Origin: Alphaproteobacteria bacterium
Lineage (GTDB): Bacteria > Pseudomonadota > Alphaproteobacteria > JAJFIK01
NCBI GenBank assembly: GCA_028280665.1
Contig: JANQLJ010000010.1
Coordinates: 1-34,744, forward strand
Direction: 5' to 3'
Length of the DNA: 34,744 nt
Below are positions 10,700-24,029 of the stretch, in pieces. How positions within the stretch are numbered: position 1 is the stretch's first letter; the number at the start of each line of letters is the position of its first letter. The position numbers and the translations under genes were made by a program. Below the pieces are notes generated by a model. It was not told where the DNA came from, ran no database searches, and saw nothing but the letters and a program-made list of their open reading frames with translations.

Positions 10700-12913
10700 A
10701 TGACATACGAAAACTTCAAAACCGATCTCGACGGCGACGGTATCTTCACGGTCACCTGGGATATGCCGGACCGTTCCATGAACGTGCTTTCGGCGGCGTC
10801 CATGAAGGACCTAGGCGCCATCGTCGAAGAGGTGACAAAGAACGACGCCATCAAAGGCGTCGTGCTCACCTCCGGCAAAAAAGCGTTCGGTGCGGGCGCG
10901 GACTTAGGCGAGATGGGCTCATCTGCCGGCTCCGGCACGGGCGAGCTGAGCCGCGAGCAGAAGCTGCAAAAGCAATATGACAGCCATATGGGCTTTATTC
11001 ATTTGCTGCGCACTATGGAAACTTCGGGCAAACCGTGGGCCGCCGCCATCAACGGCCTTGCCATGGGCGGCTGTCTTGAGATCACGCTGGCCTGCCATTA
11101 CCGCGTGGCGGCGGACGACGATGCCATTCAGCTTGCATTACCCGAGGCGAAGGTGGGCCTTCTGCCCGGCGGCGGCGGCACCCAGCGGCTACCCCGCCTC
11201 ATCGGCGCGGCGGAGGCCCTGCCGCTGCTTTTGCAAGGCAAATCCGTGCGCCCCAAGAAGGCCGCCGAAATGGGCATCATCCACAAGACGGTCCCGGCGA
11301 ACCAGCTTATCGCCGAGGCCAAACGCTGGCTCAAGGAAGAAGGCGATGCTGAGCAGCCTTGGGACAAAAAGGGCTTCAAGGTCCCCGGCGGTTCGCCTTA
11401 CGACAAAGGCAACGGCACCACCTTCGTCATTGGCAACGCGCTTTTGCGCAAAACGACGTATGGGAACTATCCCGCCCAGATCAACATTATGAAATGCGTT
11501 TATGAAGGCACCCAGGTGCCCATCGATGCGGGCCTCCGCATCGAAGCGCGCTATTTCATTGACCTTCTGAACCGGCCTGAATCGAAGAACATGATCCGCT
11601 CCCTGTTCCTTTCCTCTCAGGAACTGCAAAAGGGCGCGCGCCGGCCCCAAGGGGTTGAGCGCAAGGAGGTCAAAAAGCTCGGCATGCTCGGCGCGGGCAT
11701 GATGGGCGCAGGGATTGCGTATGTCTCCGCCAAGGCGGGCATGGACGTGGTGCTGATCGACGCGGACCAGGAAGGCGCTGAAAAAGGCAAGGCCTATTCC
11801 GAAGGGCTTCTGGATAAAGCCATCGCCAAGGGCCGCGAGACCGAAGACGGCAAGGCGGCGCTTCTTTCCCGCATTACGCCAACCACGGATTACGGTGCGC
11901 TCAAGGATTGCGACCTTGTCATCGAGGCCGTCTTCGAAGACCGCGAGGTAAAAGCGGAAGTCACCAAAAAGGCCGAAGCCGTGATCGGCGCGGATGCCAT
12001 TTACGGCTCCAACACCTCCACCCTACCCATCACGGGCCTTGCCAAGGCCTCGGAACGGCCAGGCAATTTCATCGGCATTCACTTCTTTTCGCCGGTGGAC
12101 CGGATGCCGCTGGTTGAGATTATCCTGGGCAAGGAAACCTCGGACGAGGCGCTGGCGCTCGCCATCGACTATGTGGCGCAGATCAAAAAGACGCCGATTG
12201 TGGTCAATGACAGCCGGGGCTTTTACACCTCGCGCTGTTTCGGCACCTATGTGGCCGAAGGCGTCGAGATGCTGGCCGAAGGCATTGCCCCCGCCATTGT
12301 GGAAAATGTGGGCCGCATGACCGGGATGCCGCGTGGGCCATTGGAGCTTTCGGACGACGTGGCGCTCGATCTCGCCCATCGTGTCCGTACACAGACGAAA
12401 AAGGACCTGGGCGACAAGTACACCGCAACCGCCGCCGATCCGCTGATGGAAAAAATGGTGGCGGAGCTTGGCCGCTATGGCCGCAAGAACGGCAAGGGCT
12501 TTTACGACTACCCGGCGGAGGGCAAGAAACGCCTGTGGCCGGGTCTTGCCGATCTCGTGGACATCAAGGTGACCACCACCACGCCGGAACTTGTGGAGCG
12601 GCTTAAAAAGCGGCTTCTCTACCGCCAGGCGGTGGAAGCGGCCAAGTGCTTTGAGGAGCAAGTGGTGACCGACGTGCGCGACGCGGATGTGGGCAGCATC
12701 ATGGGCTGGGGTTTTGCGCCTTACACGGGCGGGCCTTTGTCGCTGATTGACACGGTGGGCACCAAGGCCTTTGTCGAAGCGTGCGACGGGTTCGCTGATG
12801 AGCTGGGCGAACGCTTCCGTCCGTGTGCGCTCTTGCGCGACATGGCGGCGGCGGACGACACGTTCTATAACCGCTTCAACCCGAAGGGGCAGGTGGCGGC
12901 CGCGGCGGAGTAG
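10700..12913 (+). CDS. Multifunctional fatty acid oxidation enzyme: enoyl-CoA hydratase/3-hydroxyacyl-CoA dehydrogenase (FadJ/FadB type)
   Basis: 737 aa; crotonase domain (INGLAMGGCLEITLACHYRVA), NAD-binding GMLGAGMMGAGIAYVSAKAG, HFFSPVDRMPLVEII. Confidence 0.95.
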   Translation: MTYENFKTDLDGDGIFTVTWDMPDRSMNVLSAASMKDLGAIVEEVTKNDAIKGVVLTSGKKAFGAGADLGEMGSSAGSGTGELSREQKLQKQYDSHMGFIHLLRTMETSGKPWAAAINGLAMGGCLEITLACHYRVAADDDAIQLALPEAKVGLLPGGGGTQRLPRLIGAAEALPLLLQGKSVRPKKAAEMGIIHKTVPANQLIAEAKRWLKEEGDAEQPWDKKGFKVPGGSPYDKGNGTTFVIGNALLRKTTYGNYPAQINIMKCVYEGTQVPIDAGLRIEARYFIDLLNRPESKNMIRSLFLSSQELQKGARRPQGVERKEVKKLGMLGAGMMGAGIAYVSAKAGMDVVLIDADQEGAEKGKAYSEGLLDKAIAKGRETEDGKAALLSRITPTTDYGALKDCDLVIEAVFEDREVKAEVTKKAEAVIGADAIYGSNTSTLPITGLAKASERPGNFIGIHFFSPVDRMPLVEIILGKETSDEALALAIDYVAQIKKTPIVVNDSRGFYTSRCFGTYVAEGVEMLAEGIAPAIVENVGRMTGMPRGPLELSDDVALDLAHRVRTQTKKDLGDKYTATAADPLMEKMVAELGRYGRKNGKGFYDYPAEGKKRLWPGLADLVDIKVTTTTPELVERLKKRLLYRQAVEAAKCFEEQVVTDVRDADVGSIMGWGFAPYTGGPLSLIDTVGTKAFVEACDGFADELGERFRPCALLRDMAAADDTFYNRFNPKGQVAAAAE

Positions 12914-12934
12914 GCGTCACCACCCACACCCCCT

Positions 12935-13087
12935 GTCATTCCGGAAGCGATACCGCCCCAAATCTTTGATTTGGCTGGCGGGGTCAGCTCTCCGGAATCT
13001 CGGGCGGCGAGTCGCGGCGCAAGATTCCGGGTCTAACATTCGCCTCCAAGGATTTTGTCCTTGGGCTCATGTAACGCCCGGAATGAC
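12935..13087. repeat. Palindromic intergenic element (copy A) with terminal inverted repeats GTCATTCCGG/CCGGAATGAC
   Basis: 10-bp TIRs 12935-12944/13078-13087; inner arms CCGGAATCT 12992-13000/AGATTCCGG 13022-13030; hairpins CCAAATC-TTT-GATTTGG 12958-12974 and CCAAGGA-TTTTG-TCCTTGG 13046-13064. Confidence 0.85.
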
Positions 13088-13112
13088 GAGTCTTTTTTAT
13101 GTCACCCCCACC

Positions 13113-13198
13113 CGGCGCGTTCGCGCCGACCTCCCCCGTCAAGGGGGAGGTAGAAGTAAAGAACGCTCTTTCATTCCCTCCCCCCTTGCGGGGGAGGG
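13113..13198. repeat. Tandem array of three GC-rich hairpins
   Basis: CGGCGCG-TT-CGCGCCG (13113-13128), ACCTCCCCC-GTCAA-GGGGGAGGT (13129-13151), CCCTCCCCC-CTTGC-GGGGGAGGG (13176-13198). Confidence 0.85.
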
Positions 13199-13306
13199 TT
13201 AGGGAGGGGGGTACAAAACAAAAGGTCGGCGTTTCGCCCGCCTTCTTTCTGCCCGGGTTCAGTGTGCTAGGCTCTCCTCCGGCGGGGTTCCAGAGAGGAA
13301 TGAGAC

Positions 13307-13747
13307 ATGTCTCTTAGACCCATTTGTTTTGTTGCCGCGGCAATGCTTCTTGCCTTGCCCGCGGGCGCACAGGAAAGCGGGCGCTACAGCCTTGAGCGCG
13401 GCGAGGACGGCTTTGTGCGCCTCGACACCATGACCGGCGAAATGAGCCTTTGCCGGGAAACCGGCGATGGCCTTTCCTGCGACACGGCACGCGACGATGC
13501 GGCCGAGCTGCGCCGCGAGCGCGACCGCTTGCATGATGAAAACCGCGAACTTGCCCGCGAAAACGAGCAGTTACGTGACGAGCTTGCGCGTTACGATGAT
13601 TTTTCCACCGAAGGCCTGCCCTCCGAGGAAGAAATCGAAGAAGTGGCCACCTGGTTCGAGCGTGTGCTTGTCATCATGGCGCGCACCATGCGCAACGCGG
13701 AAGAACAAATAGACGAAGAACTCGAAGGCGGCGGCGAAGGGCGCTAG
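13307..13747 (+). CDS. Hypothetical secreted coiled-coil protein
   Basis: 146 aa, signal peptide MSLRPICFVAAAMLLALPAGAQES; coiled coil ELRRERDRLHDENRELARENEQLRDELARY. Confidence 0.7.
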   Translation: MSLRPICFVAAAMLLALPAGAQESGRYSLERGEDGFVRLDTMTGEMSLCRETGDGLSCDTARDDAAELRRERDRLHDENRELARENEQLRDELARYDDFSTEGLPSEEEIEEVATWFERVLVIMARTMRNAEEQIDEELEGGGEGR

Positions 13748-23531: not shown

Positions 23532-24029
23532 CCAGAGCATCCGGCTCCCGTTGCAACAGTTAGCAGAGCCCGGAATCTCGCGCGGCGAGCCCGGGAGCAA
23601 GATTCCAGGTCTAACCTGTCGCGGCGGATGCGTACCGCATCCGGCTCCACGTAACGCCCGGAATGACATTTTGTTTTTTGTATCCTCTGGCAAGCGAAGC
23701 GCGACCAGAGGATCTGGCTGCGATGCATCTTTCCTCAAAGGAAGACGTTTTCCTCCAAAGGCGTGACTGATTCAGCCAGGCCCTCTGGTCCTTCTTGCGC
23801 CATGGCGCAAACCGGCCAGAGGGTACGATTCATTTTTTGATCAAACACAACATCCAGTCCCATGGGCGAGGCGCCCTCATCCGTCATCCTCTGGCAAGCG
23901 CAGCGCGACCAGAGGATCTACCTCGCTCTCCGAGCGTGATGAAACTAAGGTAGATGCTCGGGTCGAGCCCGAGCATGACGACTTCTTGGCTATGCACCTA
24001 TTCAGACCAGGGCATCTGGCTCCCGGTGC
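23504..24029. repeat. Repeat island: hairpins and diverged copies of GACCAGAGGATCTGGCTCCCG-type and ATCCTCTGG-type units
   Basis: 34-nt repeats at 23682-23715 and 23886-23919 (1 mismatch); related 25-nt units at 23530-23554, 23703-23726, 24005-24029; CCCCCGC-TTTC-GCGGGGG at 23504-23521; nested palindrome 23781-23823. Confidence 0.8.
23570..23667. repeat. Copy B of the GTCAT/ATGAC palindromic element (left end diverged or missing)
   Basis: Shares CCGGAATCTCG, GCAAGATTCC, GGTCTAAC and GTAACGCCCGGAATGAC (17/17) with copy A; central hairpin replaced by CGGATGCG-TAC-CGCATCCG. Confidence 0.8.

Follow-up and report, generated by a model that had tools for sequence, protein, structure and literature searches.

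The palindromic element at positions 12935-13087 of the window (the whole 34,744-nt stretch of alphaproteobacterial DNA that was analysed) carries four complementary arms, which raises the question of whether these arms constitute a switch between two folds or have another origin. A sequence-only reading had proposed such a switch, with a possible role as terminator or attenuator. The best explanation, which we hold to be very probable, is a different one: a mobile heterodimer without coding function, formed by two long-loop CGTC-tagged REP units (here B and C) joined head to head and inserted just behind the stop codon of a fadJ-like gene. The arms themselves are where that reading had placed them, with ATTCCGG at 12938 and 13024 and CCGGAAT at 12992 and 13078; within the window, only these two sites fit the pattern ATTCCGG-N40-60-CCGGAAT, against none expected (0 in 100 shuffles). 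Equally present are the 10-bp terminal inverted repeat (12935-12944/13078-13087), the inverted repeat 12992-13010/13012-13030 and both inner hairpins. The tags are TGTC on the left and CGTC on the right, and the window has no match to an Rfam family above gathering score. The parts of the locus are as follows:

10700..12913, + strand: fadJ-like gene (enoyl-CoA hydratase plus 3-hydroxyacyl-CoA dehydrogenase)
12921..12934: C-side outer leader, G-poor when read toward the tag
12935..12999, + strand (tag first): unit C, tag GTC (covariance-model E=1.7e-22)
12938-12944/12992-12998, + strand: outer stem of unit C, ATTCCGG/CCGGAAT
Interior of unit C: internal loop AAGC../..AGCT, then a variable middle stem
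12958-12974: conserved apical hairpin of unit C, CCAAATC-TTT-GATTTGG
13000..13022, no strand: inter-unit spacer, 23 nt
13023..13087, - strand (tag first): unit B, tag GTC (covariance-model E=2.0e-21)
Within 13023..13087, - strand: outer stem of unit B, ATTCCGGG/CCCGGAAT
Interior of unit B: conserved internal loops CGTTA../..TTAGA and GAGCC../..GCGA, stems variable
13088..13101: B-side outer leader, GAGTCTTTTTTATG
23566..23667, + strand: second copy in the window, B intact (23601-23667, tag-first on the - strand), left unit truncated

The element starts 21 nt past the stop codon of the fadJ-like fusion gene, which itself stands behind a thiolase gene; the next gene follows 219 nt beyond the element. 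Other repeats lie close to both copies: immediately next to the element, at 13102-13215, comes a second family (CACCCCCACCCGG..CCTCCCCCGTCAAGGGGGAGG..), which recurs beside L010 and, in the sister species G001 (L232), at the 3' end of fadJ, and the truncated second copy neighbours a cluster of palindromic repeats at 23682-23990 (ATCCTCTGG..CCAGAGGAT, ATGCTCGGG..CCCGAGCAT).

The two halves of the element recur unequally. A search of the window's genome returns about ten further copies of the right half (12992-13087) and no further copy of the left half; covariance models match other alphaproteobacterial genomes as well. The earlier placement of the element in the alphaproteobacterial class of GTCATTCC...GGAATGAC palindromic repeats is upheld. 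Typically B has a short unit as its partner in this genome; in the element the partner is C, a second kind of long unit. A pattern admitting any unit yields 23 short units and 8 long ones in the window genome; short units number 79 and 38 in two congeneric species, and the reversed control pattern has zero matches. The loose scan of genome contigs gives mostly chance matches, and only those with matching flanks were kept; the genomes are in part draft MAGs. The 66 distinct dimers collected from the window genome (G000) and its two relatives (G001, G002) are arranged head to head with tags outward, join B with C, B with short units or short units with each other, and have restricted spacers (22-25 nt in 45, 11 nt in 10, 4 nt in 5, with few others). 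In the dimers L004, L012 and L014 the spacer contains another, nested palindromic repeat, such as GTCATGCTCGGGCTTGACCCGAGCATC... in L014. Although real, the equality of the two 54-nt arm offsets noted in the earlier reading is a coincidence of this copy: the units of the sister-species copy are 70 and 65 nt long.

Covariance models built from 20 copies of B and 5 of C were searched against 385 alphaproteobacterial genomes and match in 15 (B) and 16 (C) of them, the weakest matches being doubtful. B scores above 45 bits in G000, G001, G002, G202, G230, G340, G366, G384 and G040, with G352 borderline. B-C heterodimers occur in the window, in G002 (C10), G202 (C172, C158, C95), G230 (C99, C247, C292) and G384 (C239), and further in a Marinicaulis MAG (L126) and the MAG OFTM124 (L166); of the three genomes analysed from the genus, two have them, as do several other families of Alphaproteobacteria. 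Elsewhere B is also found paired with an ordinary CGTC REP, with a CCA tail. Ordinary CGTC homodimers were matched in only 3 of 142 genomes by a pattern that was too strict, and no paper naming B or C units was found in the open-access literature.

The dimers sit characteristically at gene ends. By our own simple gene calls, 31 lie between convergent genes, 24 between co-directional and 3 between divergent ones, 1 of the 66 lies inside a called gene, and the median distance to a gene 3' end is 18 nt; this position agrees with that given for CGTC REPs in PMC3733652. Clustering between convergent genes and close to stop codons (about 20 nt or less) would suit an element under selection at gene ends, as a terminator of transcription in both directions or as a protector of mRNA 3' ends, and the T-tract 3-4 nt past the right end of the window copy points the same way. 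We nevertheless regard this reading as rather unlikely. The region 12860-13330 contains no terminator-like site, and only 18 of the 132 outer flanks have a T-run of at least 4 within their first 20 nt, a mild enrichment over the other 20-nt bins (3-11). The T-run on which the earlier terminator proposal leaned does begin where described, but is not a feature of the family: together with the CACCCCC repeat that follows, it resembles the fadJ 3' end of G001, where an ordinary-looking terminator hairpin stands and the dimer is absent, as is also the case in G002. The T-run probably belongs to a neighbour or to an old terminator, at which, to judge from these comparisons, the dimer was probably inserted. 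The proposed terminator or attenuator role is not borne out.

That the dimers move is indicated by the orthologous fadJ 3' ends of both sister species, which are empty, and by host DNA flanking other copies. Five dimers, all of them in G002, stand between exact direct repeats of 11, 12, 15, 15 and 28 nt; repeats of at least 11 nt thus flank 5 of the 66 dimers, against 0 of 1680 mismatched flank pairs, and G340 C39 (L308) provides a further case with 10 nt exact. The window copy has no clear target duplication. In the five G002 dimers the repeat starts 12-20 nt from the tag on either side, and with the G340 case included the range is roughly 9-21 nt (L055, L046, L036, L105 and L096 in G002; L308 in G340). 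The intervening leader has a composition of its own, the first 12 nt outside the tag, read outward, being depleted in C (215 C against 468 G). The depletion is strong and extends about 13-15 nt outside the tags, in a sequence that is not conserved, among the 66 dimers and also in L290-L328. The bias recurs in unrelated genera. It does not simply reflect a location behind stop codons, since its position is set by the tag and the G-depletion stops at about 15 nt in longer gaps too. The target duplications, variable in length, and the leader composition both imply that the inserted unit is larger than the stretch from tag to tag; by analogy with the family, the C-side leader at 12921..12934 likely belongs to it.

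A Y1 (RAYT-type) transposase is absent from 8 of 11 host genomes tested, which are partly draft MAGs (G000, G002, G202, G230, G340, G366, G053, G011), and Y1_Tnp is present in the other 3; target duplications are in any case not expected of a RAYT-type transposase, though they are found here. DDE transposases produce target duplications of fixed length, and RAYT/HUH enzymes are not known to produce any. We tentatively suggest that CGTC-type REP dimers may be mobilised by a machinery of another kind, whose insertions reach 12-20 nt past either tag and duplicate a variable 11-28 nt of target, with the loops of B and C as its recognition structures. In two genomes the B-C dimers are enclosed by longer terminal inverted repeats that begin CTAGGGC or CTAGGTCA, in the manner of a classical MITE (L296, L297 and L298 in G230; L291 and L292 in G202). 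An element of MITE type moved by a classical IS transposase would explain these cases, the G230 dimers lying within CTAGGGCNTGTCGTCAATT... and the G202 leaders starting with CTAGGTCACGTACCC, sequences that look IS5-like; but such ends are not found in the window genus, the leader sequence is not conserved, and the duplications range between 11 and 28 nt, where DDE enzymes would leave a constant length. For the element as a whole we consider this origin improbable; the G230 dimers look like hitch-hikers on MITE-like ends, which would represent another route of movement there.

Each unit is a compound hairpin of its own. The 154-nt stretch folds at -77.6 kcal/mol as RNA, against -52.4 for shuffles (z = -6.0), and departs from shuffles likewise when folded as DNA (z = -6.9). 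Across 30 copies of B outside the model training, 96.0% of cells are paired, with 102 double changes against 30.4 in shuffled and 3-11 in slid controls; for C, in a set of 20 copies of which 5 are also training copies, 93.7% of cells are paired, with 86 double changes against 25.1 in shuffled ones (the alignments of both were fitted to the models, which favours structure; the slid controls are nonetheless far lower). Amid these variable stems the internal loops are conserved: in B, CGTTA with T..GA and GAGCC with GCGA; in C, AAGC with AGCT, plus the apical AAATC-TTT-GATTT. The outer stem of B has 8 pairs, the first being A-U in 28 of 30 sequences and the second U-A in all 30, and the GTC tag is kept in nearly all copies (those found by pattern required GTC beforehand). 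Wobble pairs, taken as a test of RNA, show no strand preference (G-T against A-C, 20 to 14), which gives no sign of a role at the RNA level. The same indifference to strand would suit covariation arising from mutation, through template switching that perfects palindromes, instead of from structural selection; perfect palindromes are typical products of this process. Perfecting mutation would, however, erase internal loops, and these remain unpaired and conserved between hypervariable stems in several families, which makes a purely mutational origin distinctly improbable.

There remains the pairing between units, on which the proposed switch depends. Both folds are indeed available to the window copy, the cloverleaf at -79.7 and the tandem hairpins at -77.2 kcal/mol of ensemble energy, and 105 of the 132 strand folds of the 66 dimers have the cloverleaf as their minimum; it is physically possible, and favoured by about 3 kcal/mol, yet it is not conserved. 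Arms within a unit (1/2, 3/4) pair in 114 of 132 comparisons, where 68.6 are expected, whereas arms across units (1/4, 2/3) match in 59 comparisons out of 132, with 67.8 expected if units are paired at random within each genome, and in G002 in 5 of 40 against 16.1, significantly below random (P = 0.001). The expectation of conserved pairing thus holds for the stems within units, which covary, and fails for the cross-unit arms. Outside the genus, a unit is in many cases joined to an ordinary CGTC REP whose stem is unrelated; the partner stem is often entirely different, as in G340 C39, or the arms have changed in concert, as in G384 C239, where one unit has ATTCCAGA/TCTGGAAT and its partner ATCTCAGA/TCTGAGAT. 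The four-arm symmetry of the window copy is therefore a by-product of two units that share a stem type by chance. That the element is a conserved bistable RNA attenuator or terminator, its arms toggling between cloverleaf (1/4 + 2/3) and tandem hairpins (1/2 + 3/4), is therefore scarcely credible, for all the closeness of the two folds in energy: cross-unit arms match no more than random partners, pairing within units is what is kept, and a canonical terminator was not found; the outcome for the switch is a clear negative.

The picture of the heterodimer is then as follows. Each unit forms its own compound hairpin, its stems covarying around conserved internal loops; units recombine into many pairings at restricted spacings, and the dimers sit at gene 3' ends, some between target duplications. 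The conserved loops and the stem would be recognised by the machinery, either within a single strand or after extrusion as a cruciform. In RNA, the hairpins would fold in succession, and any function they had there would be that of a passive structure at the 3' end, giving RNA protection or weak termination, not that of a switch. New here are two families of long-loop units with strong covariation, a compositional leader and clear target duplications; real ends, a recognition motif and recent insertions offer handles for seeking the machinery of CGTC REPs.

The nearest known system is that of the CGTC-tagged REPs, which are widespread in Alphaproteobacteria and divided into families CGTC-1 to CGTC-4 (Di Nocera et al. 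2013, PMC3733652); their mode of movement is stated there to be unknown. The superfamily is marked by an unpaired CGTC (or TGTC or CCTC) tag at one end and by a stem of 8-9 bp whose first pairs are A-T and T-A. The neisserial dRS3 repeats, equated in the same source with CGTC-1 REPs, form NIME mosaics of clustered palindromes, which resemble the neighbouring repeats described here; dRS3 units are short, and the parts of PMC3733652 drawn on report no B or C units for these mosaics. The Rickettsia palindromic elements RPE-4 and RPE-6, equated there with CGTC-4 and CGTC-1, often lie inside genes, unlike the present dimers (1 of 66). GTAG REPs and REPINs are likewise paired inverted palindromes, extragenic and in many copies, but have a different tag and are moved by RAYT, whereas Y1_Tnp occurs here in only 3 of 11 hosts and not in the window genome. 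With the CGTC REPs of PMC3733652, the family shares the CGTC/TGTC tag, a 7-9 bp stem beginning AT, head-to-head heterodimers with tags outside, restricted spacers, placement at gene 3' ends and the lack of a dedicated transposase. It differs in its loops, which are 45-50 nt long (about 47) and form two- or three-storey hairpins, where those of CGTC REPs are given as 4-5 nt with exceptions only in some species; in its tail, which is CTCG/CTTG in the window genus and CCA in most B and C copies elsewhere, against mostly CCA in CGTC REPs; and in its outer leader and target duplications, which the consulted parts of that paper do not describe. Because its loops exceed 4-5 nt, the family is filed as a long-loop variant and not as a member of CGTC-1 to CGTC-4, while its tag, stem, dimeric arrangement and position fit the superfamily.
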